Origin: Uruburuella testudinis
Lineage (GTDB): Bacteria > Pseudomonadota > Gammaproteobacteria > Burkholderiales > Neisseriaceae
Assembly (NCBI RefSeq): GCF_022870865.1
Contig: NZ_CP091508.1
Coordinates: 2,480,001-2,544,000 of the forward strand
Length of the DNA stretch: 64,000 bases
Direction of reading: 5' to 3'
In this document: one piece after another, positions 5,035-59,267 of the stretch
Layout of the letters: every line of letters begins with the position of its first letter
How positions within the stretch are numbered: the stretch's first letter is position 1
Notes under the pieces: model-generated
Told to the model about the DNA's origin: nothing
What the model saw: only the letters and a program-made list of their open reading frames with translations
Databases searched by the model: none
Made by a program: the position numbers and the translations under genes

Positions 5035-5194
5035 GGGTGTCCTGAAGTGTCGTTTATGGAGGGATTTTTGTTCCTGAAAATGCAGATGCCAGGCAAAAAA
5101 CGCAGCAAGATTGGACATCTTGCGAGGCTTTTTAACGCAGCAGATGCATTTCCAGGGGCAAAATACACCTATAAATCGAATGGTCAGGACACCC
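5035..5194 (+). mobile_element. 160-bp TA-flanked MITE, copy 1 (arm type A)
   Basis: Begins GGGTGTCCTGA and ends TCAGGACACCC, flanked by TA (5033-5034 and 5195-5196). The core reads GCAAAAAACGCAGCAAGATT then ATCTTGCGAGGC, a short hairpin with T-tracts on both strands. The length is the same as copies 4, 5, 8 and 9. It carries no transposase. A frame through it (MQMPGKKRSKIGHLARLFN) is open only by chance and recurs in every type-A copy. Confidence 0.85.
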
Positions 5195-5288
5195 TAAACC
5201 ATCACATTTACAGCAAGCGGCAGCAATGCTGTTTCCAGCGATTGACCCGCAATACGGAATAAAACAATGACTGATTGGCATACACATC

Positions 5289-6131
5289 ATGATCAGGCCG
5301 TCTGAAACGATAGAACACCGGCATGATGCACAACGCTGGGCATTAACGCTGGCTTATGACGGCAGCCTTTTCTACGGCTGGCAAAAGCAGGCCGACGGCA
5401 CGGCTACCGTTCAGACGGCCTTAGAACAAGCGCTCAGCCAGATTGCCGGAACACAAATCCATACCATTGCCGCCGGACGCACCGACACCGGCGTACATGC
5501 CACCGCGCAAGTGGTGCATTTCGACACCACCGCAATACGCCCGCAACAAGCCTGGGTGCGCGGCGTGAACGCACTTTTACCCGCGGGCGTGGCCGTGTGC
5601 AACGCGCAACCCGTCGACAGCCGTTTCCATGCCCGCTTTGATGCTTTCGGCCGCCGCTACCGCTATGTATTACAAGTCTCAGCGGTGCGCTCGCCTCTGT
5701 TGTACGGCAGAGCGGGCTGGATTCACACACCGCTAGACATAAACGCCATGCAGCAGGCCGCGGCTTTGCTGGAAGGCGAACACGATTTTTCCAGCTTCAG
5801 AGCCGCCGCCTGCCAGGCCAAATCACCGCAAAAAACCTTATACCGCGCACAACTCGGCGGCCGGCCCGAGTTAATCACGCTGGATCTGCACGGCAATGCT
5901 TTTTTACATCACATGGTGCGCAACATCATGGGGGCTTTGGTTTATGTGGGCAACGGCCGCTTGAGCGTGGCCGGTTTTGCCGATTTGATGGAAGCCCGAA
6001 GCCGTCTGAAAGCACCGCCCACATTCATGCCCGACGGCCTTTATCTCACCGGCGTGGATTACCCGCCGCATTGGGGTGTTGCCACGCCGCCGCCGCCCGA
6101 ATGGCTGTGGTCGGGCGGCAGCGCCCTATAG
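5289..6131 (+). CDS. truA: tRNA pseudouridine(38-40) synthase TruA
   Basis: 280 aa. It isomerises uridines 38-40 in the anticodon arm of many tRNAs. The catalytic aspartate is Asp66 in GRTDTGVHA. Other family blocks are [12 protein letters not shown] (21-32), [14 protein letters not shown] and [12 protein letters not shown]. The chosen ATG makes the N terminus IRPSE, encoded by a DNA uptake sequence; the family homology starts around residue 16, so the first residues are extra. Other ATGs nearby are out of frame. The fimV-truA neighbourhood is common in gamma- and betaproteobacteria. Confidence 0.95.
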
Positions 6132-6152
6132 CAGAATCAATAAAACAGATAA

Positions 6153-6536
6153 TCAGCAAGCCAACCCAAACAAAGCCATGATACAAATCAACCCCATGCC
6201 CCACAATGCGGAACGGATAGCCGGCATATCTTTGATATAGCAATAACTGTAGGCAAGGCGGCTGAAAACAAAACACAAAGCCCAAAAATTGACGCCCGCC
6301 TGCCCGGCATTGCCGGTAGCGTGGGCAATGATGACGGCCGCGGCAAACGGCGGAAAAATTTCATAGCCGTTTTTCTGCGCAGCATCCGCCCGCTCCGCCC
6401 TACCTTGCGCATGTGCCAAAAAACCACGCGGATGATGATTGTCGTGCCATTGGAAACCGCCGGCTTTTTTGGCATAAGCAGCGCAAATCCAAGGAATAAA
6501 CATCGCGGCAAACACACACCAATAAGCAATAGTCAT
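6153..6536 (-). CDS. MAPEG family membrane protein
   Basis: 127 aa when started at ATG 6534-6536 (MTIAYWCVFAAMFIPWICA). AGGGA lies about 8 bases upstream, and the length fits the 125-135 aa family; a longer in-frame start exists but lacks support. Four membrane helices are visible, with the MAPEG-type blocks NGYEIFPPFAAAVIIAH and FVFSRLAYSYCYI. Eukaryotic relatives are membrane glutathione/eicosanoid enzymes; bacterial members are mostly uncharacterised. It stands alone, convergent with truA at 22 bp. Confidence 0.85.
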   Translation of the reverse strand: MTIAYWCVFAAMFIPWICAAYAKKAGGFQWHDNHHPRGFLAHAQGRAERADAAQKNGYEIFPPFAAAVIIAHATGNAGQAGVNFWALCFVFSRLAYSYCYIKDMPAIRSALWGMGLICIMALFGLAC

Positions 6537-6922
6537 ACCCAAATCCCTTTCCATAAAATCGGCAAGCAAGCCGATATCAAACGAAACCAGCCGATATCCG
6601 GCCGGCCAATCAGCCCTTGCCGGCTCAAAACCACTCATTTCCACATGCGCCAGCATATCAGAATCAGATTGAATGCCCACAACAAAAATAATCCAACACC
6701 GTTGGCTCGCCTTATCCGGAGAGAGTCGGTTTCGTTAAGGCGCTAAAGTGCCAAACCAACCCCATATTCACTATACCGCCTTCATCCGCCTTGTCTGCTT
6801 ACTTTGGTAAATCGTTATAATTTTTTGTTTTTATACAAAATACCGCCCTAAAGCCTTGCCTTCACACACCGACAACTGCTAGACTGCCTACATTACCAAC
6901 CTGTTTAAGCAAAGGCAACGCT
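6537..6922. other. Intergenic region with decayed repeat
   Basis: No gene. At 6710-6800 the sequence GAGAGTCGGTTTCGTTAAGG ... TCCGCCTTGTCTGCTTACTT is a decayed member of the second repeat family; its closest relative in the window is 57250-57367. A TATAAT at 6816-6821 may serve the downstream rhodanese gene, but no good -35 is spaced correctly. Confidence 0.45.
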
Positions 6923-7303
6923 ATGCGCACATTACTCCGCACCGCCCTGATCACCACCATCCTGGCTCTGCCTGTCGGCGTTCAGGCCGCAGATGCCGCT
7001 CCCGCCATGCAAACGGCCAGCGCCGCCGGCACGCAAAGTCAGCGGACGAAAGGCGTTTGGATAGACGTGCGCTCGCCCGAAGAATTTAAAGAAGGCCATC
7101 TGAATGGCGCCGTCAACATCCCCGGCGACCAAATTCCCGCCCGCATCCGTGCCGTCAGCCCCGACAAAAGCGCTCCGGTAAACCTCTATTGCCGCAGCGG
7201 CCGCCGCGCCGAAGCTGTGTTGCAGACACTCAAGCAAATGGGCTACACCAACGTCACCAACCACGGCGGTTATCAGGATTTAGTCAATAAAGGCATCCGC
7301 TGA
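6923..7303 (+). CDS. Periplasmic rhodanese-like sulfurtransferase
   Basis: 126 aa. Signal peptide 1-22 (MRTLLRTALITTILALPVGV, cut after AQA-type site). One rhodanese domain runs from about 43 to 124: DVRSPEEFKEGHLNGAVNIP, then the active loop YCRSGRRA with Cys90 as the persulfide-forming residue, then MGYTNVTNHGGY. It resembles PspE/GlpE single-domain thiosulfate sulfurtransferases exported to the periplasm. The physiological sulfur acceptor is not evident. It is monocistronic, closed by a DUS-pair terminator. Confidence 0.88.
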   Translation: MRTLLRTALITTILALPVGVQAADAAPAMQTASAAGTQSQRTKGVWIDVRSPEEFKEGHLNGAVNIPGDQIPARIRAVSPDKSAPVNLYCRSGRRAEAVLQTLKQMGYTNVTNHGGYQDLVNKGIR

Positions 7304-7309
7304 TTTTTC

Positions 7310-7351
7310 AGGCCGTCTGAAGCACCACATTGATGCTTTCAGACGGCTTTT
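7310..7351 (+). terminator. DUS-pair terminator after rhodanese gene
   Basis: AGGCCGTCTGAAGCA pairs with TGCTTTCAGACGGC and is followed by TTTT. Confidence 0.8.
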
Positions 7352-7375
7352 GATTTTACCCAAGGAGAAAATAAA

Positions 7376-7861
7376 ATGATGTCACGCTACCTGCTTCCGC
7401 TTGCACTCACCGCCGCCCTCGGCCTATCAGCCTGCGGCCACATCCATCATGACCGACCCCACCCGAAAGCGCACGCGCCCATGCAAACCCACACCGTTAT
7501 CAGCAAATACAGCTTCAACGACACCGTATCCCGCCTTGAAAACGCCGTTCAATCGCGCGGCATGACCGTATTTGCCGTAATCGACCACCAAGCCGCCGCG
7601 CAAAAAGACGGCCTGAATATGCAGCCCGCCAAAGTGATTATTTTCGGCACACCCAAAGCCGGCACTTCGCTGATGGTGAAAGACCCCGCCTTCGCGCTGC
7701 AACTGCCGCTGAAAGTATTGGTAACCGAAACCAACGGCCAAACGCAAGTAGTCTTTAACGACACCCGTGCACTGATTCGCGGCAGTAAAATCGAATACAG
7801 CGAAGTAGAAAACACACTGGCCAATGCAGGAAAACTGATTCGCAAAGTGGTTACAGAATAA
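7376..7861 (+). CDS. DUF302 family lipoprotein
   Basis: 161 aa. Lipobox LSAC with Cys20, then a His-rich linker (HIHHDRPHPKAH). The DUF302 domain covers about 45-150 with YSFNDTVSRLENAVQSRG, FAVIDHQ and the central IIFGTPKAGT and DPAFALQLPLKVLV motifs. The domain function is unknown. The histidine-rich N-terminal stretch may bind metal (inference). The start is MMSRY, with AAGGAG 9 bases upstream of the first ATG. Confidence 0.85.
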   Translation: MMSRYLLPLALTAALGLSACGHIHHDRPHPKAHAPMQTHTVISKYSFNDTVSRLENAVQSRGMTVFAVIDHQAAAQKDGLNMQPAKVIIFGTPKAGTSLMVKDPAFALQLPLKVLVTETNGQTQVVFNDTRALIRGSKIEYSEVENTLANAGKLIRKVVTE

Positions 7862-7878
7862 ATACTTCAAATATAATC

Positions 7879-7932
7879 AAGGCCGTCTGAAAGACTTTCG
7901 GCGAGCTTGTCTAACCATTCAGACGGCCTTTT
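7879..7932 (+). terminator. DUS-pair terminator after DUF302 gene
   Basis: AAGGCCGTCTGAA at 7879 pairs with TTCAGACGGCCTT, followed by a T run. The loop is about 27 bases, longer than usual. Confidence 0.7.
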
Positions 7933-7962
7933 GCATATTGTTGTTTTTTTATTGCTTCGGTT

Positions 7963-8250
7963 ATACCCGTCTACCAAAGCAAGCTAACTAGGCGAACCCG
8001 CGCCGTTGGGTGATTTTGCGAATGAATATGACACCGATATTCTGCATCATGCGGCCCAAGCCGAAGCAACACAACAAACCGGCAAACCACTTCTGCATCC
8101 GTTCCATCCGATTCCTGACACCATAAAAACACAGGCCGTCTGAAAACAATCTTTCAGACGGCCTTTTAACCATCGATACCCATTCACAAAAATTACCCAA
8201 TAGCGCGGGTTCGCCTGACAAGCTGGCTTTTTTGAACGGCTATTCTATAA
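7963..8250. repeat. Inverted pair of second-family repeats around a DUS-pair terminator
   Basis: The segment 7963-8031 (ACCAAAGCAAGCTAACTAGG ... GCGAATGAATATGA) and the segment 8172-8250 read in reverse (GCCAGCTTGTCAGGCGAACC ... TGAATGGGTATCGA) are diverged copies of the same 70-bp unit in opposite orientation. Both share GGCGAACCCGCGC. A DUS inverted pair (8133-8166) sits between them. No gene is present. Confidence 0.65.
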
Positions 8251-8252
8251 GC

Positions 8253-9926
8253 TTAACGCGTAACCGGCTTGTAGCGAATCCGTTTCGGCTGTGCGCCCTC
8301 TTCGCCCAAACGGCGTTTTTTATCGGCTTCGTATTCCTGATAGTTGCCGTCGAAAAATACCCATTTCGAGTCGCCTTCCGCCGCCAGAATGTGGGTAGCG
8401 ATGCGGTCGAGAAACCAGCGGTCGTGCGAAATCACCATCACGCTGCCGGCGAATTCGAGCAAGGCATCTTCGAGTGCACGCAGCGTTTCCACGTCCAAAT
8501 CGTTAGACGGTTCGTCCAACAGCAACACATTGCCGCCGGCGAGCAGGGTTTTGGCCAAATGCAAGCGGCCGCGTTCGCCGCCGGAAAGGTTGCCGGCGAT
8601 TTTGCTCTGGTCGCTGCCCTTGAAATTGAAGCGGCCGAGATAAGCGCGCGCCGGGATTTCAAACTGCCCTACCTGCAAAATGTCGCGGCCTTCGGCAATA
8701 TTGTCAAACACGGTTTTGTCGTTTTTCAAACCGTCGCGGCTTTGATCAATCAGCGACATTTTCACGGTTTGGCCGATGGCCACTTCACCGCTGTCGGGCT
8801 GCTCTTTACCGGCAATCATTTTAAACAGCGTCGATTTACCGGCGCCGTTGGGGCCGATGATGCCGACAATCGCACCGGGCGGCACTTTGAAGCTCAAGTC
8901 GTCAATCAGCAGCTTGTCGCCAAACGATTTGCTCACATTGGCAAACTCAATCACTTCATTGCCCAAACGCTCGGCCACGGGGATAAAGATTTCCTGCGTT
9001 TCGTTGCGCTTTTGGTATTCGTAGTTGCTCATTTCTTCAAAGCGCGCCAAACGGGCTTTCGATTTGGCCTGACGGCCTTTGGCGTTTTGGCGCACCCATT
9101 CCAGCTCCTGCTTCATGGCCTTGATGCGGGCGGCTTCAGATTTTGATTCCTGCGCCAAACGTTGCTCTTTCTGCTCCAGCCAGGAAGAATAATTGCCTTT
9201 CCACGGAATGCCGTGGCCGCGGTCGAGCTCCAAAATCCATTCGGCAGCGTTATCCAAAAAATAACGGTCATGCGTTACCGCCACCACGGTGCCGGGAAAG
9301 CGCACCAGAAATTGCTCCAGCCACTCCACCGATTCGGCGTCTAAGTGGTTGGTCGGCTCGTCGAGCAGCAGCATATCAGGCTTGCTCAACAGCAGTTTGC
9401 ACAAGGCCACGCGGCGTTTTTCGCCGCCGGAAAGATGACCGATTTTGGCATCCCAATCGGGCAGGCGCAGCGCATCGGCGGCGATTTCCAGCTCGTGTTC
9501 CGCACCGCCGCCGGTGCTCGAACCGGCCGCAATAATGGCTTCCAATTTGCCTTGTTCTTCGGCCAGCGCATCAAAATCGGCATCGGCTTCGGCATAAAGG
9601 GCATACACTTCTTCCAGCCGTTTTTGCGCGGCGGCCACTTCGCCCAAACCGCTTTCCACTTCTTCGCGCACGGTTTTTTCAGGATCAAGTTGCGGCTCTT
9701 GCGGCAGATAGCCGATATTGATGCCGCTCATCGGCACGGCTTCGCCTTCAAATTCTTTGTCCACACCCGCCATAATGCGCAACACGGTGGATTTGCCGGC
9801 GCCGTTCAAGCCCAAAAGGCCGATTTTGGCACCGGGAAAAAAGGAGAGGGAAATGTCTTTAATAATGGTTTTTTGCGGCGGCACCACTTTGCTCACGCGC
9901 AGCATGGAATAAACGTATTGGCTCAT
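8253..9926 (-). CDS. ettA: Energy-dependent translational throttle protein EttA (ABC-F)
   Basis: 557 aa, the usual EttA length. Two ABC domains without membrane segments: Walker A GLNGAGKST (about 38) and GPNGAGKST (about 358); signatures LSGGEKRRV and LSGGERGRL; Walker B LLLDEPTNHLD and LLLDEPSNDLD. Between them lie the arm and the basic linker (VRQNAKGRQAKSKARLARFEEM) that contacts the ribosomal E site and P-site tRNA. EttA senses the ATP/ADP ratio and gates entry into the elongation cycle. It is monocistronic; the start MSQYVYSMLRVSKVVPP matches the family. Confidence 0.97.
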   Translation of the reverse strand: MSQYVYSMLRVSKVVPPQKTIIKDISLSFFPGAKIGLLGLNGAGKSTVLRIMAGVDKEFEGEAVPMSGINIGYLPQEPQLDPEKTVREEVESGLGEVAAAQKRLEEVYALYAEADADFDALAEEQGKLEAIIAAGSSTGGGAEHELEIAADALRLPDWDAKIGHLSGGEKRRVALCKLLLSKPDMLLLDEPTNHLDAESVEWLEQFLVRFPGTVVAVTHDRYFLDNAAEWILELDRGHGIPWKGNYSSWLEQKEQRLAQESKSEAARIKAMKQELEWVRQNAKGRQAKSKARLARFEEMSNYEYQKRNETQEIFIPVAERLGNEVIEFANVSKSFGDKLLIDDLSFKVPPGAIVGIIGPNGAGKSTLFKMIAGKEQPDSGEVAIGQTVKMSLIDQSRDGLKNDKTVFDNIAEGRDILQVGQFEIPARAYLGRFNFKGSDQSKIAGNLSGGERGRLHLAKTLLAGGNVLLLDEPSNDLDVETLRALEDALLEFAGSVMVISHDRWFLDRIATHILAAEGDSKWVFFDGNYQEYEADKKRRLGEEGAQPKRIRYKPVTR

Positions 9927-9955
9927 AATTTTCTCGTTGGGGGTTGCGATAGCGT

Positions 9956-10090
9956 TTCAGACGGCCTCAGGAAACAAACGTGTTTGCAGGCCGTCTGAAA
10001 ATCAAAAACAATCGCCTTATTCTAACCGAAGGCACTTGAATCACCAAACGAATCAGGCCGTCTGAAAAAACTATATTTTCAGACGGCCTG
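9956..10090 (-). terminator. Two DUS-pair hairpins upstream of ettA
   Basis: 9956-10001 (TTCAGACGGCCT ... AGGCCGTCTGAAAA) and 10054-10090 (AGGCCGTCTGAAAA ... TTTTCAGACGGCCT) are two inverted uptake-sequence pairs 52 bp apart. They lie downstream of the minus-strand gene at 10291 and can end its transcript before ettA. The orientation is symmetric, so they may work both ways. Confidence 0.6.
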
Positions 10091-10102
10091 ATAATCAACC
10101 GA

Positions 10103-10200
10103 TTAGATTCGGCAGTTTTAATCCTAAAAATTCATTTCTTTTTTAAAATAATTCGATTGATTTAAACAATGCAGTTATTTAATTGCCGTCTCTATACATT
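10103..10200 (+). repeat. AT-rich dispersed repeat (third family), copy 1
   Basis: AGATTCGGCAGTTTTAATCC, then ATTCATTTCTTTTTTAAA, CGATTGATTTAAA and GCAGTTATTTAATTGCCG occur in the same order at 53440-53540 on the other strand with about 20% differences and small indels. There is no coding potential. Confidence 0.6.
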
Positions 10201-10290
10201 ACGCCATGCCGCCGTGGGCGGAACCTATGCTGCTGTTTTCGGTTTGCAGAGGCGGTTTGTTTTCAGACGGCAATTCTTGGTTTGCCGATA

Positions 10291-10617
10291 TTATTGGGAT
10301 GCCGCGGCCTGCTGCGCTTGTTTTTCCTGCTCGCGTTTTTGCTGTTCGCGCTTTTGCTGTTCGCGCACCAGCCGTTTGCTCTCGCGGGTGCGGCGGCTTT
10401 TTTCCAAATGATCGGCAATTTTCTTGTTGATGCTGCGGGCGCCGGCCAATTGCAATGGCGCCTCTCCGGCAGGCTGCAACGTCATGGATGAAGTGTGGCG
10501 TTCAAACGTTTGAGCCCAATCAGTCGGCGCCGGCCTCTCGGGTGCCATCGCTGCTGCCGGCCAAGCCGTTAATGCTGCCGATAATGCGAAAGAAATCAAA
10601 AAAATCCGACGGTTCAT
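10291..10617 (-). CDS. Small secreted protein with basic Gln/Lys/Arg/Glu tail, unknown function
   Basis: 108 aa from ATG 10615-10617, with AGGAGG 5 bases upstream; a longer frame start (10644) lacks a ribosome site. Signal peptide 1-24 (MNRRIFLISFALSAALTAWP, AAA cut). The C-terminal third is an uninterrupted charged helix with the near repeat QKREQQKREQEKQ. I do not recognise the family. The periplasmic location and charged coil suggest a structural or binding role, but nothing more can be said. Confidence 0.7.
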   Translation of the reverse strand: MNRRIFLISFALSAALTAWPAAAMAPERPAPTDWAQTFERHTSSMTLQPAGEAPLQLAGARSINKKIADHLEKSRRTRESKRLVREQQKREQQKREQEKQAQQAAASQ

Positions 10618-10781: not shown

Positions 10782-10937
10782 GGGTGTCCTGACAATTCAT
10801 ATATCATCATCTTTTTTGTGCTAAAAGCACATCTGCTGCGTTAAAAAGCCTCGCAAGATGGCCAATCTTACTGCGTTTTTTGCCTGACCTCTGCACGTTC
10901 AGAAACAAAAATCCCCAAACGACGTATCAAGACACCC
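10782..10937 (-). mobile_element. MITE copy 2, chimeric arms, decayed right end
   Basis: Left TA at 10780-10781 then GGGTGTCCTGACAATTCATA (type B arm). The core is inverted relative to copy 1. The right half (GTTCAGAAACAAAAATCCCC) is a type A arm. It ends GACACCC followed by AG instead of TA, so the right duplication is lost where a DUS begins. 156 bp. Confidence 0.75.
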
Positions 10938-10967
10938 AGGCCGTCTGAAAACCATTTCAGACGGCCT
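10938..10967. terminator. DUS inverted pair
   Basis: AGGCCGTCTGAAAACCATTT then CAGACGGCCT, a 12-bp stem directly abutting the MITE end. Confidence 0.55.
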
Positions 10968-16057: not shown

Positions 16058-16339
16058 AAGTTGTGTTCTTTCTTTTCAGACGGCCTGTGCTGATGATTAG
16101 AGGCCGCCTGAAACAGGGCAAGGTTCGGGCAGCACGGATTATCGGCGGCTGCCTGCTGATAATAGAAAAGGATGGTTATTATGCCATAAATCGGCGGGCT
16201 TTTCAGAAGCGGTTTGCGATTTGGACAGCGGTTTTGCCGCCGTGAAGAGGCCGTCTGAAACCCATTCGCAAAAGCCAGCCGCCGAGGCGGCGAACCGACA
16301 ATAATACAACCGGCACAGCAAGGCAGGGCGGCGCTCTAG
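16058..16339. other. Intergenic region with repeat fragment
   Basis: No gene. 16254-16300 (GAAACCCATTCGCAAAAGCC then CGAGGCGGCGAACC) is a fragment of the second repeat family next to a lone DUS. Confidence 0.4.
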
Positions 16340-16498
16340 GGTGTCCTGACAATTCAGAATTATTCAGATTTTTTGCGATAAAAGTGCAGATGCCAAGCAA
16401 AAAACGCAGCAAGATTGGGCATCTTGCGAGGCTTTTTAACGCAGCAGATGTGCTTTTAGCACAAAAAAGATGATGATATATGACACATCAGGGCACCC
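16340..16498 (+). mobile_element. MITE copy 3 (arm type B)
   Basis: TA at 16338-16339, then GGGTGTCCTGACAATTC; right end CATCAGGGCACCC. 159 bp. The right duplication has mutated to CA. Confidence 0.8.
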
Positions 16499-16500: not shown

Positions 16501-16530
16501 GGGTGTCCTGATGTGTTGATTTATGCATAC
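16501..16530 (+). mobile_element. MITE left-end fragment, tandem to copy 3
   Basis: GGGTGTCCTGATGTGTTGAT begins 2 bp after copy 3 ends; only about 30 bp remain before the 3' end of the GntR gene. It forms an inverted repeat with the end of copy 3 (ACACATCAGGGCACCC / GGGTGTCCTGATGTGT). Confidence 0.6.
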
Positions 16531-20179: not shown

Positions 20180-21364
20180 TCAATCCGGCAAATCCGAATG
20201 GCGGCCCTGTAAATAACGTTCTTCATATTCGGGGCTGATGCCGCGCCGAAGCTGCCAACGGTTTACATAAGCCACTAAAAACGGGCTGACAAAGGCGGTC
20301 ACCACCACCGCTGTGGCAATCTGTGCAGTGGCCGCATCCTGAATGCTTAAAAAACGGGGGTCAACCATGGCAATGGCGGCGGGGGTGGCAATCGCATTGC
20401 CCGCCACCGCCGATTCGCAGGCACCGGCCAAGATATTGCGGGCAGGGCGCGGACGTTTGCGCAAGGTATACCATGCATACAAAAACAGCATTGCCGCGCC
20501 GCCGGACAATAATACCGTCATCAAGCCCAACACAATCCCTACTGCGCCCGATGTGAACAATACCGAAAGATTAATGCCGGCGCCGATGGCAAAAGCCGCA
20601 AATGGAATAATCAACTTTTCGCCCGGTGCTAAAAACACACGCACCAAACGGCTGCTGTTGCCTAAAATAAAGCCCAAAATAATCGGGAAAACCGCTGCCA
20701 GCAATGCGATTAAAGGCAAATCGGCCAGCCCCGCCGTGCCCAATGCCACCATGGTCAGAAACGGGCCGTCGTTTAACGACAATATCGAAATTGCGCCGCG
20801 ATCGGTTTTATTGCCAAACTGGCCGGCCAATGCCACATACAGCGAACCGTTTGAATTAGACATGGCCGCAATAACCGCCAGCGGCAACAAACCCCACAAT
20901 GTGCCTTGCGGCATCAAAAATGCTATGCCCAAGCCTATTGCCACCGCTACCAGATATTTTGCCAATAACAACACTAGGGTGTCCTGACCATTCAGAATTA
21001 TTCAGATTTTTTGTGATAAAAGCACAGATGCAAGGCAAAAAACGCAGCAAGATTGGGTATCTTGCGAGGCTTTTTAACGCAGCAGATGTGCTTTTAGCGC
21101 AAAAAAGATGATGATATATGAATTGTCAGGACACCCTAAACCCTTTTCTACCGCAGGCAGCGCCGCCCTGAGCCGGATTTGCGATCCGATGCACATAAAA
21201 AACAAGCCGATCAACACCGGCACGCCGTTTTTAAACAGCGCCGTGGTAAAACTGCCGATATTGAGTATCTGCGGGGCAAAAGTATTGATCAGCGCCCCGG
21301 CAAACAACGGCAAAATCATCAAAGCCCCGGGAATTTTACCCAGTTTGTACAAAAAATGATCCAC
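20180..21364 (-). pseudogene. kdgT: 2-keto-3-deoxygluconate permease, interrupted by MITE
   Basis: The 5' part starts at GTG 21362-21364 (GAGGAGG 5 bases upstream) and reads VDHFLYKLGKIPGALMILPL ... NIGSFTTALFKNGVPVL ... ALPAVEKG. The 3' part (from 20974) reads VLLLAKYLVAVAIGLGIAFL to EERYLQGRHSDLPD. A 160-bp element plus a TA duplication lies between them. Removing 162 bp gives EKG-L-VLLLAK in one frame and a 340-aa KdgT, the family length being about 330. With the element in place translation enters it and stops after 21 further codons, so the transporter is inactive unless the element excises. About ten membrane segments. Confidence 0.9.
20977..21136 (+). mobile_element. MITE copy 4 inside kdgT (arm type B)
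   Basis: TA 20975-20976, GGGTGTCCTGACCATTC ... AATTGTCAGGACACCC, TA 21137-21138. 160 bp. The host frame proves that the duplicated target is exactly TA. Confidence 0.92.
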
Positions 21365-29101: not shown

Positions 29102-29566
29102 ATGAAAAATCTCGACAAAACCGACCGTAAAATCTTAAAACTGCTGCAACAAAAAGCACGTATGCCGATGACCGAGCTGGCTGAAAAAGTGGGGCTTTCC
29201 ACCACGCCGGTCACCGAACGGGTACGCCGTTTGGAGCGTGAAGGCATCATCAGCGGCTATCATGCCCGCCTCAACCCCCACGCGTTGGGGCAAAGCCTGC
29301 TGGTCTTCGTAGAAATCAAATTGCGCTCGAAATCCGGCAATATTTTTGAAGACTTCCGCCGCGAAGTGGCAATGATTCCGCAGATTATGGAATGCCATCT
29401 GGTATCGGGCGAATACGACTACTTGATTAAAGTGCGCCTGCCCGATATGTCGGCCTACCGCGACATGCTCGGCAATATTCTGCTGCAACTGCCCGCCGCC
29501 GCAGAAAGCCGCAGCTATGTGGTGATGGAAGAAGTGAAAGAAGAAATGCTGCTGGATTTGGGCTAG
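29102..29566 (+). CDS. lrp: Lrp/AsnC-family regulator, probable activator of dadA
   Basis: 154 aa from ATG 29102 (MKNLDKTDRKILKLLQ); ATG 29084 would add six residues. N-terminal HTH about 18-50 (MTELAEKVGLSTTPVTERVR) and C-terminal RAM domain with MECHLVSGEYDYLIKVRLPD. It responds to amino acids in this family, commonly alanine when next to dadA. The stop codon TAG is formed by the TA target and the first G of the MITE that follows (29566), so the element abuts the gene without a single spare base. Confidence 0.92.
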   Translation: MKNLDKTDRKILKLLQQKARMPMTELAEKVGLSTTPVTERVRRLEREGIISGYHARLNPHALGQSLLVFVEIKLRSKSGNIFEDFRREVAMIPQIMECHLVSGEYDYLIKVRLPDMSAYRDMLGNILLQLPAAAESRSYVVMEEVKEEMLLDLG

Positions 29567-29725
29567 GGTGTCCTGACCATTCGTTTATGAGGGGATTTTT
29601 GTTCCTGAAAATGCAGATGCCAGGCAAAAAACGCAGCAAGATTGGACATCTTGCGAGGCTTTTTAACGCAGCAGATGCATTTTCAGGGGCAAAAAGCACC
29701 CGTAAATCGAATGGTCAGGATACCC
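29566..29725 (+). mobile_element. MITE copy 5 (arm type A), abutting lrp
   Basis: TA 29564-29565, GGGTGTCCTGACCATTCG ... GAATGGTCAGGATACCC, TA 29726-29727. 160 bp. Left arm CCTGAAAATGCA pairs with right arm TGCATTTTCAGG. Confidence 0.92.
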
Positions 29726-29727
29726 TA

Positions 29728-29886
29728 GGGTGTCCTGACCATTCGTTTATGGAGGGATTTTTGTTCCTGAAAATGCAGATGCCAGGCAAAAAACGCAGTA
29801 AGATTGGATATCTTGCTGCGTTTCTCATCCTGCATCAGCACTTTTCTTACAAAAAGCTGAATCATTCTGGATACTCAGAAATACCT
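29728..29886 (+). mobile_element. MITE copy 6, fused arms, decayed right end
   Basis: It shares the TA of copy 5, then GGGTGTCCTGACCATTCG. The left half is type A. After the core (AAGATTGGATATCTTGCTGC) it continues as the inverse of a type B left arm (CAGCACTTTTCTTACAAAAA). It ends near ATACC with several changes. About 159 bp. A core-hairpin recombination product (inference). Confidence 0.7.
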
Positions 29887-29993
29887 CGGCATAGATACGA
29901 GAGGCCATCTGAAAACGTTCAGACGGCCTGATATCAATTCGTCAAAATCATCTGCTTGTGTTGCCCGTGCCTTTAGAGGGCTTGTTCCCGCCA

Positions 29994-30187: not shown

Positions 30188-30280
30188 AAAAAAAATGCAC
30201 ACATTCGTTGGAATGTGTGCCAAGTCTACAAAGGAGAAATAGAGGAGAAACTATTAACTGGTTACTCAAAACCAACTAAT
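30188..30280 (-). ncRNA. Candidate trans-acting small RNA with anti-Shine-Dalgarno motifs
   Basis: About 93 nt. Predicted start A at 30280, 7 bases after the -10 box. 5' hairpin TGGTT-TTGAGT-AACCA, then an unpaired pyrimidine-rich stretch with two CTCCT motifs (TTTCTCCTCT and TTTCTCCTTTG), then the terminator stem GCACACATTC-CAAC-GAATGTGTGC followed by ATTTTTTTT (30188-30220). The architecture matches Hfq-dependent sRNAs, and CTCCT can pair with ribosome-binding sites. No ORF fits. Neisseria sRNAs such as the RcoF/NmsR pair and AniS also use C/U-rich anti-SD regions, but identity to any of them is not established. Confidence 0.72.
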
Positions 30281-30286
30281 GAACGA

Positions 30287-37514: not shown

Positions 37515-37540
37515 GGGTATCCTAACCATTCAGGATGCCC
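37515..37540. mobile_element. 26-bp MITE scar (ends only)
   Basis: TA, GGGTATCCTAACCATTC joined directly to AGGATGCCC, TA. It keeps both tips and the TA flanks but has lost all 134 bp of interior. It lies 9 bp from the dcd stop. Confidence 0.75.
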
Positions 37541-39346: not shown

Positions 39347-39506
39347 GGGTGTCCTGACAATTCATATATCATCATCTTTTTTGTGATAAAAGCACATCTG
39401 CTGCGTTAAAAAGCCTCGCAAGATGCCCAATCTTGCTACGTTTTTTGCCTTGCATCTGCACTTTTATCACAAAAAATCTGAGTAATTCTGAATTGTCAGG
39501 ACACCC
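39347..39506 (-). mobile_element. MITE copy 8 (arm type B), first of a tandem pair
   Basis: TA 39345-39346, GGGTGTCCTGACAATTC ... GAATTGTCAGGACACCC, TA 39507-39508; 160 bp. Arms GTGATAAAAG / CTTTTATCAC pair perfectly. Confidence 0.93.
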
Positions 39507-39508: not shown

Positions 39509-39668
39509 GGGTGTCCTGACCATTCGATTTACGGGTGCTTTTTGCCCCTGGAAACGCATCTGCTGCGTTAAAAAGCCTCGCAAGATGTCCAATCTTGCTG
39601 CGTTTTTTGCCTTGAATCTGCATTTCCAGAGACAAAAATCCCCTCATAAACGAATGGTCAGGACACCC
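39509..39668 (-). mobile_element. MITE copy 9 (arm type A), second of a tandem pair
   Basis: It shares the TA of copy 8 (junction CACCCTAGGGTG), GGGTGTCCTGACCATTCG ... CGAATGGTCAGGACACCC, TA 39669-39670; 160 bp. Arm pair CTGGAAACGCA / TGCATTTCCAG shows a paired change relative to copy 5. Confidence 0.93.
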
Positions 39669-49383: not shown

Positions 49384-49424
49384 AGGGGCAAAACGCACCT
49401 GTAAATCGGATGGTCAGGACACCC
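49384..49424 (+). mobile_element. MITE right-end fragment abutting lptG
   Basis: AGGGGCAAAACGCACCTGTA ... GGTCAGGACACCC then TA. Only the last 41 bp of a type A copy remain. The TAG stop of lptG (49424-49426, minus) consists of the TA flank and the terminal G of the element. Confidence 0.85.
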
Positions 49425-53211: not shown

Positions 53212-53216
53212 AACAC

Positions 53217-53540: not shown

Positions 53541-53900
53541 ATAGTATGGCAAGGCGAGCCAACGCAGTTGGCTTATTTTTGTCAATGGTATCAGACGGCC
53601 CCAACCAAAAAAGGCCGATAAAGCATCCCCCCTTTGATTGGGATTTTACTTTCACCCTTACCCAACCCGCGCCCGTTACCCTGAATACCGCATAACCGAT
53701 AATATCGAAGCACACGGCATCGCGGTGCGGCAACGCCAAGCTGCCGGCGTCGATAAAAATAAAAACCGCCAAGCCAAATACCAAGCCATTGGCAACAGCC
53801 TTTTTATTACCGCAGACGAAATATTTGATTACCGCAAACTGATGCGGGAAAACTGCCGCCGCCATGCCGCCGGCCGGCAGAAGTCTGAGGCGATTTACGC

Positions 53901-53906
53901 TATAAT
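53901..53906 (+). promoter_or_regulatory. -10 box of holC
   Basis: Perfect TATAAT 26 bases before the holC ATG; the -35 is not clear. Confidence 0.45.
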
Positions 53907-53932
53907 CGGGCTTTTCCGCCCCGGAAGCCAGT

Positions 53933-54373
53933 ATGCCTAAAGCCACTTTTTACACCCACGTCGGCAACCCCGCCGCCTTTACCTGCCGCCTGGCCGGCCG
54001 CGCCGTGCAAAGTGGCAGCCGGGTGTTGGTATGGTCGGATGCCGAGGAAACGCTGGCGCGGCTTGACGCCGATTTATGGCGCTTTGATCCCGAAAGCTTT
54101 CTGCCCCACGAAATCTGGTATCCCGGCAGCCCCTTCCCACCACACACACCGCTGCTGTTGGCAGCAGGCACCCATCTGCCCGACATCGGCGAAGGCTGGG
54201 CCGTGCTCAACCTTTCCCCCGACTTTTGGAGCCAAGCCCCCACTTTACCCGCCCGCGTGCTCGAAATCGTCAGCGATAATCTGGAAGACTTGGCCGAAGC
54301 ACGCGAACGCTTTAAGGCTTACCGGCAACACAGTTTCGAAATCGAACACCACAATATGCAGGGCAAAGCTTAG
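53933..54373 (+). CDS. holC: DNA polymerase III subunit chi
   Basis: 146 aa. KATFYTHVGN start, then FTCRLAGRAVQSGSRVLVWS, WRFDPESFLPHEIW (His in the conserved FxPH), VLNLSPDFW and a C-terminal RFKAYRQHSFEIEHHNM. The chi subunit links the clamp loader to SSB. It follows pepA as in many proteobacteria, but here a 700-bp repeat-filled gap and a terminator separate them, so holC uses its own promoter. Confidence 0.94.
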   Translation: MPKATFYTHVGNPAAFTCRLAGRAVQSGSRVLVWSDAEETLARLDADLWRFDPESFLPHEIWYPGSPFPPHTPLLLAAGTHLPDIGEGWAVLNLSPDFWSQAPTLPARVLEIVSDNLEDLAEARERFKAYRQHSFEIEHHNMQGKA

Positions 54374-54654
54374 GGGGTTCTCCAGGCCGTCTGAAAACTG
54401 TGAAAGCAACCATTTTACCAGCTGATACAAATCAATACCGTTTCATAAAAAAACCTGACCGCATTGATCAGGGATGCTGTGTGGCTGCTGAATAGTGTCT
54501 CTCATTTCCGTATCCGGCAGAGCCTGCTGAAACCCTGCATGATGCGCAAACGGCTTCAACAGACCCGGCCCACGGCTTCAGAATATTTTGAAGATGTGCC
54601 CATTCACAAAAGCAAGCCCGCCCGCGGCAGCAAATCTGCCGCATCCAACGGGTA
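54374..54654. other. Convergent intergenic region holC-trhP
   Basis: A DUS at 54383-54394. 54596-54650 (GCCCATTCACAAAAGCAAGC then CCGCGGCAGCAAATCTGCCG) is a second-family fragment close to the trhP stop. No gene. Confidence 0.45.
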
Positions 54655-56010
54655 TTACGGGTTCATCACCCGCGCCAGCAACGCTTTTTCCTTGCCCTGC
54701 ATTTGCGGGATTTTCACTTCGATGCCGTTGCCGGGCGCCACTTCCACCGCTTCGCCTTTGCGCGTCATCGCTTCCAGCACCACAGTTTGGTTGCCGCTCG
54801 GGTGGATGATTTCCAGCGTGTCGCCCACGCTGAATTTGTTTTTCACTTCCACCGTTGCCCACCCTTCGCTGTCGATGTCGGTTATCTGGCCGACAAACTG
54901 GCTTTGTTTGGCCAGCGAATGGCCGGAAAGATAGTTTTGATAATCTTTGGTTTGATGGCGCTCCAAAAAACCGGGCGTGTAGCCGCGGTTGGCGAGGCCT
55001 TCCAGTTCCGCCAACAAGCCGTAATCGAACGGCCGCCCGGCCACGGCATCATCAATGGCTTTGCGGTAAGCCTGCGCCACACGGGCAACGTAATACACCG
55101 ATTTGGTGCGCCCTTCCACTTTCAGGCTGTCGACGCCGATTTCGGCCAATTTGGCCACTTGCTCAATGGCGCGCAAGTCTTTGGAATTCATGATGTACGT
55201 GCCGTGCTCATCTTCCATAATCGGCATCAGCTCGCCGGGGCGGTTGGCTTCTTCAATCAGAAACACTTTATCGGCGGCAGGATGGCGGATTTGGCCGTTG
55301 ATGCCTTCGAAAGCGGCATTGGCTTCTTCTTGCGCTTTATTGAAATCAAAGCCTTGCAGCAGTTTGGCATCGCCCATTTCATCGATGGCGGTGTCGTGTA
55401 CTTTGTAATCCCAACGGCAGGCGTTGGTGCAGGTGCCTTGGTTGGGATCGCGGTGATTGAAATAGCCGGAAAGCAGGCAGCGGCCGGAATAAGCGATACA
55501 CAAGGCGCCGTGCACAAACACTTCCAATTCGATATCGGGGCATTGTTGGCGGATTTCGGCGATTTCGTCCATGCTCAATTCGCGCGACAGAATAATGCGC
55601 TCAACACCGATTTTCTGCCAGAATTTCACACCCCACCAGTTGGTGGTGTTGGCTTGCACCGATAAATGAACCGGCACTTGCGGCCAGCGCTCGCGCACAT
55701 TCATAATCAGGCCGGGGTCAGCCATAATCAGCGCATCGGGCTGCATGGCAATCAAAGGCTCCATATCGGCCATAAAGGTTTTCAGCTTGCTGTTGTGCGG
55801 CAGCGTATTAACGGTGAGAAAGAATTTTTTGCCGCGCGCGTGCGCTTCGCTGATGCCGGTTTCGAGTACTTCGAGTTTGGCAAATTCGTTATTGCGGGCG
55901 CGCAAAGAATAGCGGGGCGAACCGGCATATACGGCATCGGCGCCGTAATCAAAGGCGGCGCGCATGCGTTCGAGGCCGCCGGCGGGCAGAAGAAGCTCTG
56001 GGGATTTCAT
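54655..56010 (-). CDS. trhP: U32-family tRNA 5-hydroxyuridine synthesis protein TrhP (YegQ)
   Basis: 451 aa. Peptidase U32 domain: ELLLPAGGLERMRAAFDYGA, VHLSVQANTTNWWGVKFW, then the signature ELEVFVHGALCIAYSGRCLL, and cysteines in GYFNHRDPNQGTCTNACRW that bind an iron-sulfur cluster; SLKVEGRTKSVYYVA follows. YegQ/TrhP makes ho5U34 in tRNAs from prephenate. Full length, single gene. Confidence 0.94.
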   Translation of the reverse strand: MKSPELLLPAGGLERMRAAFDYGADAVYAGSPRYSLRARNNEFAKLEVLETGISEAHARGKKFFLTVNTLPHNSKLKTFMADMEPLIAMQPDALIMADPGLIMNVRERWPQVPVHLSVQANTTNWWGVKFWQKIGVERIILSRELSMDEIAEIRQQCPDIELEVFVHGALCIAYSGRCLLSGYFNHRDPNQGTCTNACRWDYKVHDTAIDEMGDAKLLQGFDFNKAQEEANAAFEGINGQIRHPAADKVFLIEEANRPGELMPIMEDEHGTYIMNSKDLRAIEQVAKLAEIGVDSLKVEGRTKSVYYVARVAQAYRKAIDDAVAGRPFDYGLLAELEGLANRGYTPGFLERHQTKDYQNYLSGHSLAKQSQFVGQITDIDSEGWATVEVKNKFSVGDTLEIIHPSGNQTVVLEAMTRKGEAVEVAPGNGIEVKIPQMQGKEKALLARVMNP

Positions 56011-56033
56011 GTGTGTGCAAACCTGATAAATGT

Positions 56034-56071
56034 TTTCAGACGGCCTTTACCTCATGGAAAGGCCGTCTGAA
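56034..56071. terminator. DUS inverted pair upstream of trhP
   Basis: TTTCAGACGGCCTTT ... AAAGGCCGTCTGAAA, 15-bp stem; ends the TraB-family transcript before trhP. Confidence 0.65.
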
Positions 56072-56211
56072 AGAAAAGATGTAGCTGTTCAATGAATAAT
56101 CATACCTTATGGCTTCGCCTTGCCATACTGCCCTCGGCTCCGCTGCTCCGTATGATGATGCCGTTGAACAACTCTAGAATGTTGAAATTATCCGCTTTTT
56201 TGATTGCGGGG

Positions 56212-57156
56212 TCAATTTTCCAACGATGTGCGAACAGATTCGGGCAACACCGGCGTAACCTGATAGCCGACCTGCCGCAAGCGCAAAATCAGTCCTTGTT
56301 CGCCAAACAGATGCGCCGCCCCCACCGCCACTAGTGTAGGTTTTTGCGGCAGAATCTCAATCAGCCGGGGCAGCCATTGCTGGTTGCGCTCAATCAGCAG
56401 TTTCTGATACATAAAATCATGCCAATACGCATGATCTTGTTTCGGCTGGTATTTTAACTGTGTTTGCGGATTGCTGATTTCCTGCCACAAAGCGCCGGCA
56501 CGGCCGGCCTGATAATCTTCGACCAATTTTTTCTGTTCCGACAATACCGCCCGATGATGACGGATGAGCATATCCAGGCTGCGTTTGACGGTGTTTTCGG
56601 GAATGGCGTTAAAATAATGCAAAGGCTCTGACCGCTCCAACGCAATCACCGGTTTTTGCTGCTTTTGTGCCGCCTCAATCAATAAATTATCTACGCCGTA
56701 TTGGTAAGAATAGCCTTTAGGCGAATACGCGGTCTGCAACATCGCCCACACCACCCACGGTTTATCATGGCGGCTGCCGCTGATGTCTATCGGATCATGC
56801 CCTTGCGCAGCCATACGGCTGAGCGCCCACACCCTGGCGCGACCGAGCGATTGGTTCAAAGTGCGCTTATCGCTCATCAATTGCATCATGCGCGCAGCTT
56901 CGGCGGCATGGCGCGGCTGGGCAAGCTCGTCGGCATTCGACTCCACCACCACTTGCGCCACCTTATCCAGCGCCTGTTGCGGCAAGGCGCCCAAACGGCT
57001 GCCCACTTTGCCCACATGCACAGTGCCGAGCAGATAAGCATCGGGGCGGCCGCTTTTGCTTACTTTCCATAAAAAAGTATCTGCTTCCGGTGCGCCGCGG
57101 GCAAAACTGACGGCCGTTGCCAACAATGTCAGCAAAAATAACAGGTATTTCGGCAT
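56212..57156 (-). CDS. TraB/GumN (TIKI-like) family protein, secreted
   Basis: 314 aa from ATG 57154-57156 (MPKYLLFLLTLLATAVSFA), giving a signal peptide cut about residue 21; the longer open frame crosses a DUS. Motifs of the TraB/GumN group: DAYLLGTVHVGKVGS (the first metal-type GTxH motif), YQYGVDNLLIEAAQKQQKPV and VAVGAAHLFGEQGLI (GxxH near the end). Eukaryotic TIKI relatives are metalloproteases; the role of bacterial forms is unsettled. Monocistronic. Confidence 0.87.
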   Translation of the reverse strand: MPKYLLFLLTLLATAVSFARGAPEADTFLWKVSKSGRPDAYLLGTVHVGKVGSRLGALPQQALDKVAQVVVESNADELAQPRHAAEAARMMQLMSDKRTLNQSLGRARVWALSRMAAQGHDPIDISGSRHDKPWVVWAMLQTAYSPKGYSYQYGVDNLLIEAAQKQQKPVIALERSEPLHYFNAIPENTVKRSLDMLIRHHRAVLSEQKKLVEDYQAGRAGALWQEISNPQTQLKYQPKQDHAYWHDFMYQKLLIERNQQWLPRLIEILPQKPTLVAVGAAHLFGEQGLILRLRQVGYQVTPVLPESVRTSLEN

Positions 57157-57173
57157 GGCTTTCCCAAACTCAC

Positions 57174-57212
57174 ATTCAGACGGCCTCACAAACACAGATG
57201 AGGCCGTCTGAA
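57174..57212. terminator. DUS inverted pair
   Basis: TTCAGACGGCCTCA ... TGAGGCCGTCTGAA, 14-bp stem upstream of the TraB-family gene. Confidence 0.6.
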
Positions 57213-57249
57213 ACCTATTCACAAAATTCATCTGATGGCGTTGACACGC

Positions 57250-57367
57250 CTGAACTCAAAGAGAGTCGGTTGCGCTAAGCTGTTGAAGCGCCAAACCAGC
57301 AGCCCCCGCACCACCTGTATTGCCTCCGGCTTGCCGCCTTATTCACTGACTTTTGTCAATAGGTATG
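57250..57367. repeat. Second-family repeat, long variant
   Basis: AAAGAGAGTCGGTTGCGCTA ... GAAGCGCCAAACC on the left and GGCTTGCCGCCTTATTCACT ... ACTTTTGTCAATAGGTATG on the right. The left end matches the decayed copy at 6710-6800. Confidence 0.6.
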
Positions 57368-57402
57368 AAACCATTTATCACACACTTTTTATCCCAACAC
57401 GG

Positions 57403-57792
57403 CTACCAGCGGTAAAAAGGCCGTCTGAACGGATAGTAAAAGTGATCCCAATAATCATCATAATAATAACGCATCTCGCGCAAGCGCTGTTGCGAAATAT
57501 AGTTTTGCCAAGCCATTTTGTAACAGGCTTGAAACATCGGGTCGGCCACTTTATCAACATATTGCAACCTGAATGCCTGCCGTTGTTGTTCGGTTTGCCC
57601 CGGCGGCGGATCAAACTGCATGCGCATCAAATCAGCCGTTTCCCGGTCACACTGGCCGGCCAGCGCCACTTGCAGGTTTTGCTCATATTGCTTTTGCGCC
57701 GCCGCTCGCGCTGCTTTTTGTTCGGGCGTAGTGGCGCAGGCCGCCAGCAGCAAGGCTGCAGATAAGGTTAAGGCCGTCTGAAAAGTTTTCAT
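57403..57792 (-). CDS. Putative lipoprotein, unknown function
   Basis: 129 aa. Lipobox LAAC with Cys19 (LSAALLLAACATTPEQ), a basic helical segment, AGQCDRETADLMRMQFDPPP, and a Tyr/Arg-rich C terminus (MRYYYDDYWDHFYYPFRRPF) unusual in aromatic content. GGAG lies 6 bases before the ATG. The mature part has two cysteines besides the lipid-bearing one. Family not recognised. Confidence 0.72.
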   Translation of the reverse strand: MKTFQTALTLSAALLLAACATTPEQKAARAAAQKQYEQNLQVALAGQCDRETADLMRMQFDPPPGQTEQQRQAFRLQYVDKVADPMFQACYKMAWQNYISQQRLREMRYYYDDYWDHFYYPFRRPFYRW

Positions 57793-57933
57793 TTCACGCT
57801 CCTTTGATAAGCCATGCAGCCAATTTACGCCACTTTGTATCCATGTTGCAAGCCCAAGACACTATGGCATGGCATCAAAATCAAACAACAGGCATACCGC
57901 CTTATAGCGGCATCCGCACTGCCCTGTCACCTC

Positions 57934-58092
57934 AGCACCCTAACCATTTTTTATGAGGTTTTTTTTGTTTCTGAAAATGCGGATGCCCGTCAAGAAACGC
58001 AACACAAGCAAACATCATCTCACGCGGTTTTTTAACACGACAGATGTGTTTTCAGAGGCGAAATACACCTGTCAATCCAATGATCAGAATTT
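57934..58092 (+). mobile_element. MITE copy 11, strongly decayed (type A)
   Basis: Left end CACCCTAACCATTTTTTATG, then TTTCTGAAAATGCGGATGCC, core AAGAAACGCAAC ... CGCGGTTTTTTAACACGACA, right arm GATGTGTTTTCAGAGGCGAA, end CCAATGATCAGAATT. About 159 bp, 25-30% changed by eye, with no TA-GGG ends left. Confidence 0.6.
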
Positions 58093-58307
58093 ACTTTTTG
58101 AATAAATATAGTGCCATTCCCCCGCAAAAAGCATCGCAGACAGACACATATATGCAACATTTTACGCCGTTTTCAACATCAATTTCAGACGAAAGGTGTA
58201 AATTTCAAACGAACGGCTTGACGATAACCTGCTTTATTTTCATACTATAAGCACAATTTCTGCACAGCAGAAATAAAGACGTGAATCGCTTCAATCTCTT
58301 ATCACCA
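58093..58307. other. Intergenic, nothing recognised
   Basis: AT-rich sequence without an ORF, hairpin terminator or repeat that I can identify. Confidence 0.3.
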
Positions 58308-58362
58308 GGGTGTCTTGATGTGTCGCTTCCGCGAGGATTTTTACCCCCTGCAAATGCAGATT
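58308..58362 (+). mobile_element. MITE left-end fragment
   Basis: GGGTGTCTTGATGTGTCGCT ... GAGGATTTTTACCCCCTGCA then AATGCAGAT; homology fades after that. Confidence 0.5.
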
Positions 58363-58512
58363 TATCTGATTTGGCACAGTACACCACAGCAGAGATGAAG
58401 CTGTTTCACCATACGGGATAAAAGCAGTATCGGGTTGTGATGCGCAAATGCAAATTTATCAGCCCGTCTGCAATAAAAAATAATGTGAAAACTTTCTGAT
58501 TCGGAACTTACC

Positions 58513-58659
58513 ATGATTGACCGCTTAATGCCCCTTTTCGCCATTATCGGCGTATTATCCAGCCTCGGCTACCTGAGCCTGATGGCGTGGGTGATGTATC
58601 GGAATCTGACCCGCAGCAAGAAAAAACCGCTTGCTGCACACAGAACCGAACACGCCTGA
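58513..58659 (+). CDS. 48-aa membrane protein, unknown function
   Basis: MIDRLMPLFAIIGVLSSLGY then LSLMAWVMYRNLTRSKKKPL, ending RTEHA. One long membrane helix (about 6-30) with a basic tail (RNLTRSKKK), so N-out/C-in topology is likely. GGAA lies 7-8 bases upstream, and a strong DUS-pair terminator starts 15 bp after the stop, which supports a real gene. It resembles small envelope peptides. Family not recognised. Confidence 0.6.
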   Translation: MIDRLMPLFAIIGVLSSLGYLSLMAWVMYRNLTRSKKKPLAAHRTEHA

Positions 58660-58674
58660 TTCCACCACAAAACT

Positions 58675-58719
58675 ACCAAGGCCGTCTGAAACACCGCGGG
58701 TGTTTCAGACGGCCTTGGT
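58675..58719 (+). terminator. DUS-pair terminator of the 48-aa gene
   Basis: ACCAAGGCCGTCTGAAACAC pairs with GTGTTTCAGACGGCCTTGGT, a 20-bp perfect stem with loop CGCGG. Confidence 0.85.
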
Positions 58720-59106
58720 TGCTTTAAATCTAACATACTATTCACGCACTCTAAAACCTTTGTCACATTTCTGCTATGTCCATCACAAAAACAGCCCAAT
58801 TGGCTCGCTTTGCCGTACCGGCACACTGTCTTCAACTCGCCGCCTTGTCAGCCTACTTTTTTGAGTGGGTGTGAAAGCAATACAAAACTTTTGATTAACG
58901 TTATTCCGACGCCGACAAAAATCCCCGTCTGATGTTCAAATATATGATCTGAAATGAATTTTACGCCCCAAACACAGATAACACAGCTTAAGCTCCAGCC
59001 AAATAAGCGCTACTTATCTCTACCTCTTCAGACTTACCTGCCCGCAATCAATGACATCCATTCGATAAAGAAGCTGATCCGGCAGGCAAGGCAGTATGGC
59101 AAGCTA
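58720..59106. other. Intergenic with second-family repeat end
   Basis: 58796-58875 (TTGGCTCGCTTTGCCGTACC ... CGCCGCCTTGTCAGCCTACT) is a right half of the second repeat family. The remainder shows nothing. Confidence 0.4.
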
Positions 59107-59267
59107 GGGTATCCTGACCATTCATATATCATCATCTTTTTTGCGCTAAAAGCACATCTGCTGCGTTAAAAAGCCTCGCAAGATGTCCAATCTTGCTACG
59201 TTTTTTTGCCTGGCATCTGTACTTTTATCGCAAAAAATCTGAATAATTCTGAATGGTCAGGACACCC
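59107..59267 (-). mobile_element. MITE copy 13 (arm type B)
   Basis: TA 59105-59106, GGGTATCCTGACCATTC ... GAATGGTCAGGACACCC, TA 59268-59269; 161 bp (one extra T in the core). Confidence 0.92.

Follow-up and report, generated by a model that had tools for sequence, protein, structure and literature searches.

The window analysed here is a stretch of 64,000 bp (G000:C1:2480001-2544000) from the single-contig, 2.95-Mb genome of Uruburuella testudinis (Neisseriaceae; class Gammaproteobacteria in the GTDB lineage), and it carries a dispersed family of palindromic elements of about 160 bp. These elements are miniature inverted-repeat transposable elements (MITEs): they are short, end in inverted-repeat tips, occur in many similar copies, lack a transposase gene and duplicate TA. 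In eight of the window's copies neither tip has more than 2 mismatches to GGGTGTCCTGAC; copies of the family start with TA|GGGTGTCC or near variants. In the middle of the elements lies a core of about 75 bp, described below, whose strand gives the orientation of each copy and whose match to a covariance model is given in bits. Intact 160-bp copies lie at 5035..5194 (+; TA on both sides; core 5078-5152, 96.3 bits), 20977..21136 (+; TA on both sides; 97.0 bits), 39347..39506 (-; 94.2 bits) and 39509..39668 (-; TA on both sides; 94.4 bits), the last two being in tandem with one TA in common. Two further 160-bp copies are found at 16339..16498 (+; TA on the left, CA after the right tip; 88.0 bits) and 29566..29725 (+; TA on both sides; 98.4 bits), together with a 161-bp copy at 59107..59267 (-; TA on both sides; 88.1 bits) and a 156-bp copy at 10782..10937 (-; TA on the left only; 77.8 bits). 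The copy at 29566 is in tandem with another at 29728..29887 (+; right limit approximate), which has a good left tip, a diverged core (49.8 bits) and a decayed right tip. Smaller or older pieces were recognised from their sequence: a left-tip fragment without assigned strand adjoining the 16339 copy (16501..16520, right limit approximate), a 26-bp tip-to-tip deletion remnant, also unstranded, with TA on both sides (37515..37540), a fragment of the right end followed by TA (49384..49424, +), a decayed copy (57934..58096, +, limits approximate; core 57975-58052, 30.3 bits) and the decayed left half of another (58308..58390, no strand, limits approximate). With each copy scored on its better strand, the core model matched ten of them, nine at 49.8 bits or more, and gave one extra weak match at 4756-4830 (23.1 bits). 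The small RNA NmsRb (Neisseria metabolic switch regulator b; 98.9 bits) lies at 30191-30282 (-), about 300 bases past the tandem pair 29566-29887.

A sequence-only reading of this window had reported nine intact copies of 160-161 bp with TA on both sides, and five decayed or partial ones. The repeat family is real and the decayed pieces were found as described, but only eight of the nine copies called intact carry both tips (that at 29728 does not), the copy placed at 16340 starts at 16339, the length holds for seven of the eight, and TA flanks both sides in six, the right one missing at 10782 and 16339. The family extends over the whole genome, where the 13-mer tip TAGGGTGTCCTGA occurs 211 times (111 forward, 100 reverse) and the same 13-mer read backward does not occur on either strand. 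Copies with paired tips number 78 in a sample of 40 evenly spaced 20-kb stretches plus the window (864 kb); 64 of them are 156-163 bp long and 45 measure exactly 160 bp. Their density is about one in 11 kb, and the window, with 8 copies in 64 kb, is somewhat richer; the core model found 97 cores in this sample, 67 of them within paired-tip copies. The median nearest-neighbour identity among the 45 copies of 160 bp is 0.95. Among 66 copies of 140-175 bp, TA stands on the left in 59, on the right in 58 and on both sides in 53, in keeping with the earlier proposal of non-autonomous, TA-targeting transposons. Of 18 junctions at which facing tips are at most 6 bases apart, 13 contain just a single TA and none contains two (TATA), and CACCCTATAGGGTG is absent from the 864-kb sample; the TA therefore belongs to the target DNA and not to the element end. 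Nor is it part of a longer invariant unit, because the sequence past the TA varies, save for a preference for CTAG: of 26 non-tandem copies, 11 have it as their outer target, whereas 94 of the 9193 TAs in intergenic DNA lie in CTAG. A simple codon-usage gene caller put two thirds of TA sites inside called genes but none of the 65 copies that could be placed (one more lies at a stretch edge). The arms of the 66 copies are of two types, with 31 copies aa, 19 bb, 9 hybrid and 7 unclear, and the hybrids indicate that copies recombine.

The sequence-only reading had attributed the mobilisation of these elements to an IS630/Tc1-type transposase, since TA target duplication is an established trait of that superfamily, and the genome does contain nine matches to DDE_3, the IS630-type domain. 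All nine loci were scanned for the MITE tip, and it was found in none of them except in MITE pieces beside the insertion sequence (IS) in L012; the IS ends, determined in L010 and L012, read ATAGATTCGGCAATTAAATAT and bear no resemblance to the MITE tips. The tips are found on IS5-family elements instead, so the IS630/Tc1 partner was rejected and we regard it as very improbable. The expected IS with the same ends and a DDE transposase was not seen at the nine IS630-type loci scanned but was found in the IS5 family, as a relic here and as an intact IS in a sister genome. In L012 (G000:C1:930848-934273) the IS630-type element sits at a TA between MITE pieces, so that two TA-targeting kinds of element nest at one site.

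For the IS5 family, 83 genomes of the Neisseriaceae (own included) were surveyed, 19 of which have DUF4096 matches, and 30 such loci were read for IS ends. The own genome has two DUF4096 matches, one of them in a decayed 870-bp IS (L002) whose ends, TA|GGTTGTCCTAGCAATTACTTGTCATA and TA|GCGTGTCCTGACAATTACTTGTCATA, each adjoin CTA and are a degraded form of the MITE tip. The sister genome G043 holds an intact IS of 871 bp (L041:1389-2259) with perfect ends TA|GGGCTTCCTGACAATTACTTGTCATA on both sides and an open frame of 260 amino acids that contains the Pfam domains DUF4096 and DDE_Tnp_1; an identical public record is named IS5 family transposase. The longest open piece of the relic is identical to this transposase in 105 of 119 amino acids (88%). 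At positions 4-8 of the tip, CTTCC occurs at 29 of the 44 ends of the 22 distinct G043 MITEs and TGTCC at 0, whereas TGTCC is found in 90 of 132 ends of the 66 own copies. Arms and core are common to the MITEs of both genomes while the tips follow each genome's own IS, and this exchange is the main evidence for an IS5-family partner. Elsewhere in the family the support is partial: the IS of G037 (GGGTCTGTCGAC) nearly matches the MITE tip GGGGCTGTCGAC, which occurs next to the IS in L046 and in 2 of 9 stretches, and in G002 the first nine bases are common to one IS end and the MITE. G054, perhaps Paralysiella testudinis to judge by one protein match, has 38 DUF4096 matches yet no MITE match at E 0.001. 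The partner group is presumably IS427/IS1301-like; the target AYTAG, which we take to be that of IS1301, was not confirmed on checking.

On this evidence an IS5-family transposase with DUF4096 and DDE domains would recognise the 12-17-bp tips in trans and insert the elements at TA, preferably within CTAG, with duplication of the TA. Three observations weigh against this explanation. The abundant IS of G019, with ends GGGTCTGTCGAC, matches the tips of 0 of 10 MITEs examined there, so that an autonomous IS5-family element with MITE tips, present as a relic in the own genome and intact in G043, was not seen in G019; no partner IS was found for the tips GGGAGTGTAGTC or GGGCGTGTCGTC; and base-exact empty sites were not found, synteny with G043 giving presence or absence only. 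Looking for empty sites through TruA and RdgC synteny gave none, the genes being arranged in a different order in the loci that were read. In a 20-kb comparison with 10 genomes, long synteny was seen with G043 and shorter blocks with the others, and the intergenic regions of G043 do not align base by base with those of the own genome. The fimV-truA interval of G043 (L195/L255) contains another palindromic repeat, TATAGTGAAAAAACTTAC...GTAAGTTTTTCCACTATA, with Correia-like ends, upstream of truA, where the window has the MITE at 5035. As the sole matching IS found in the own genome is broken, the family is probably ageing there.

The middle of the element has a much wider distribution than its tips. 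The earlier suggestion to look for the repeat beyond this genome was borne out, as BLAST with one window copy against the 83 family genomes (at most 10 candidates scored per genome) gave matches in 24 of them (own included), often over the middle only because lineages have their own tips while the core persists. The central stem of about 75 bp recurs in MITEs of about 160 bp with about a dozen tip types in the Neisseriaceae and Pasteurella testudinis, including GGGAGTGTAGTC in N. dentiae, GGGCGTGTCGTC in an Eikenella assembly, GGGCTTCCTGAC in both G043 and P. testudinis, and the further lineage tips GGGCGTGTAGTC, GGGCGTGTCCCT, GGGTCTGTTGAC, GGGGCTGTCGAC, GGGACTGTTTGC, GGGGTTGCGGAG, GAACCTGCATTC and GGGCGAGCCGAC, some of which are only a base or two apart. 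Of 28 representatives picked by hand, 27 have lengths of 158-163 bp. When the 7 representatives with CTGAC tips were compared with the 20 others (G012_4 was excluded from these counts), identity was 83% across the core, against 47-51% in the arms and 44-47% in the tips. An exact 23-base core pattern was found in 39 stretches of named genomes, namely N. dentiae, two Neisseria assemblies, one Eikenella assembly and P. testudinis; of these, P. testudinis belongs to the Gammaproteobacteria and N. dentiae to the Betaproteobacteria. In N. dentiae (loci among L096-L132), 10 of 18 core rows share an extra stretch with GCTTCGCAAGTCCGCT inside the T-run of the core, possibly an insertion that later spread with the element.

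Across the class, a covariance model of the 75-bp core built from 27 sequences matched 44 of 369 genomes (own included) and 37 of 272 genera, where about 0.4 genomes would be expected at the threshold if the E-values were exact, their calibration being rough; some of these matches are weak (30 bits), and reading covered part of them. Some of the genomes are complete and many have several copies. The 69 class loci include palindromic elements, often of about 160 bp, which bear other tips (GGAACCTCTGATTAATT, GTGGGCCATGCG, ACCCGTGGCGTTTGAGATTT, TATACCTCTTGCGTTC, GGGCACCTCTATTAATT); the same core is combined with two tip types in G293 and with two related tip types in G435, and several loci of GC-rich genomes are without clear terminal repeats. 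Double-core elements, with two inverted cores about 30 bases apart, were seen in L283, L284, L310 and L321. No viral contig matched the Neisseriaceae core pattern or the class-wide pattern, no plasmid matched a window copy, L290 or L306, and neither phages nor plasmids matched L282; a search with L305 gave one plasmid match, in Shewanella sp. ANA-3. No Rfam 15 family matched the element at its gathering score, the best match over a core being M23 RNA on L321 (29 bits against the 41.2 required). The core model was also applied to 21 loci around transposase matches, where it found only neighbouring MITEs (5 rows, 3 loci). The idea that the core is a part of an IS was therefore rejected, and its absence from every IS examined argues against an origin of these MITEs by simple deletion within an IS; the tips of an IS may instead have been joined to, or have evolved on, a pre-existing chassis.

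The structure of the core was examined in a MAFFT alignment (A6) of 46 cores, consisting of 37 of 70 class matches and 9 of 27 Neisseriaceae cores; the class matches came from 66 of the 69 loci, L304, L311 and L331 being cut by contig ends and left out. A structure of 16 pairs places standard pairs in 94.2% of the cells, as compared with 62.7% in shuffled alignments (0 of 500 reached it) and at most 47.7% when the structure was slid. Two-sided changes were found at 15 pairs; on that one measure 10 of 500 shuffles did as well, on the others 0 of 500. The best-conserved bases, CAAGGC (each at least 90%) and AACGcnG (the second C at least 70%), are mostly unpaired and lie opposite each other between covarying helices. 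The core as a whole is an asymmetric, imperfect hairpin of about 75 bp. Of the two strands, the core strand gives the more stable fold in 55 of 66 copies of the own genome, in 25 of 27 representatives and, in the class set, in 33 of 34 cores (31 of 34 with 40-base flanks), although related copies are not independent in these counts; the class folding set comprised 34 of the 37 cores, L280, L291 and the second L283 match being left out. At pairs found on both strands, the class set has 50 G-U against 10 A-C oppositions. These data suggest that the core may be a functional folded single strand of defined polarity, either RNA or single-stranded DNA (ssDNA), and that it would have been kept because it works in this form.

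Several observations weigh against this single-strand interpretation. The G-U excess is weak in the Neisseriaceae set picked by BLAST (16 against 12), pairs of the antisense structure turn its sign (58 G-U against 88 A-C in the class set, 16 against 40 in the Neisseriaceae), and a crude ungapped count has no excess (230 against 234). Because the model that selected the class cores accepts G-U on the core strand, the covariation and strand figures from that set are biased in this direction. Hairpin-templated repair can by itself give palindromes compensatory changes. The core strand has no link with the direction of the upstream gene (31 against 34). The folding-energy comparison carries the single-strand interpretation more than the G-U count does.

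The same repair process underlies an alternative in which the core is inherited filler, that is, one ancestral MITE spread widely and its core decayed slowly because templated repair kept both arms matching. The hybrid copies (9 of 66) do show recombination between subfamilies, palindromes self-correct, and the Neisseriaceae elements align along their whole length. The best-conserved bases, however, are the largely mismatched strands CAAGGC/AACGcnG, which self-correction should erase, the arms of the same palindromes have drifted far more than the core, and a preference of the fold for one strand does not fit filler; we therefore consider this alternative unlikely, although it has the best standing among the rivals. 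The Neisseriaceae core strand has an A-run before the apical stem and a T-run after it, which could mean that the element owes its retention to serving host genes as a transcription terminator or as a structure at mRNA ends; MITE transcripts form stable stem-loops according to a review (PMC10969869). But conservation of the T-run does not extend to the class-wide set, the orientation of genes around the copies equals the random-TA expectation (convergent in 15 of 65 against 22%), and the lack of co-orientation with the upstream gene mentioned above also speaks against it; a general terminator role was rejected on these grounds and is improbable.

A strand-specific role in replication or ssDNA processing, with one orientation relative to the fork preferred, was also considered. 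The core strand lies on the C-rich strand in 71 of 102 copies (p 9e-5) and in 65 of 97 core hits (p 0.001), the two sets overlapping. The bias is 51:18 in one replichore, against 14:14 (97-hit set) or 22:13 (102-copy set) in the other, with a Fisher p of 0.03 in the 97-hit set, and it comes from one genome in which the turning point was judged from the GC skew of sampled stretches. The fork-related preference points toward ssDNA or replication, although the two replichores differ in it, and as an explanation of the core we judge this role unlikely, slightly less likely than inherited filler but more likely than a terminator.

Taken together, we favour the explanation that these are MITEs moved by an IS5-family transposase, with a separate, conserved functional core and exchangeable tips, and we give it a probability of roughly 0.72. 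Lineages of such elements would persist by keeping the chassis while the tips track whichever transposase is available. A broader version can be put forward only tentatively, at somewhat less than even odds: that one structured single-strand core is the shared functional chassis of otherwise unrelated MITEs of Betaproteobacteria and Gammaproteobacteria, in which the tips and the parasitised transposase are swapped and the length of about 160 bp is kept, the core being a device that selection maintains in the parasite, or else a second parasite carried within MITEs, and not IS debris. Bacterial MITEs are usually described family by family and viewed as the debris of one IS. If one core with mismatched conserved strands and a constant length joins MITE families of many tips throughout a class, MITEs would own a device of their own and could change their helper transposase. 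One could then test why certain bacterial MITEs attain copy numbers in the hundreds although the only matching IS found is dead, as is the case here, and a widespread group of elements could be searched for with the core model.

Among known systems, the Correia elements (CREE/nemis) of Neisseria are likewise small, palindromic, without a transposase and associated with TA target duplication, and IS1106 of the IS5 family is suggested as their mobiliser in a review (PMC3898611). According to the same source they are 100-155 bp long, as compared with 160 bp here; their tips, given in the sequence-only reading as TATAGTGG, differ from those of the present copies, as that reading had correctly pointed out, and the core is a further difference. 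The IS5-family DUF4096/DDE insertion sequences have in common with the present elements the inner part of the tips, CTGACAATT, the TA in a CTA context and the partner in G043, but the MITE shares the tips only, and its core is in no IS examined. Intergenic MITEs of the Gammaproteobacteria, such as SonMITE_1 of Shewanella (named in the review PMC10969869), are also small and mobile, and the plasmid copy of Shewanella sp. ANA-3 matches the core model at 38 bits. No report of MITEs with different tips sharing one core was found in the open-licence literature, nor was a description of this family; the earlier suggestion that it is undescribed thus gains support but is unproven, ISfinder and most subscription papers being beyond the search. 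REP/REPIN repeats and IS200/IS605 hairpins are imperfect hairpins with strand asymmetry, as are the present elements, which differ from them in having DDE-type IS tips, TA duplications and a length of 160 bp.

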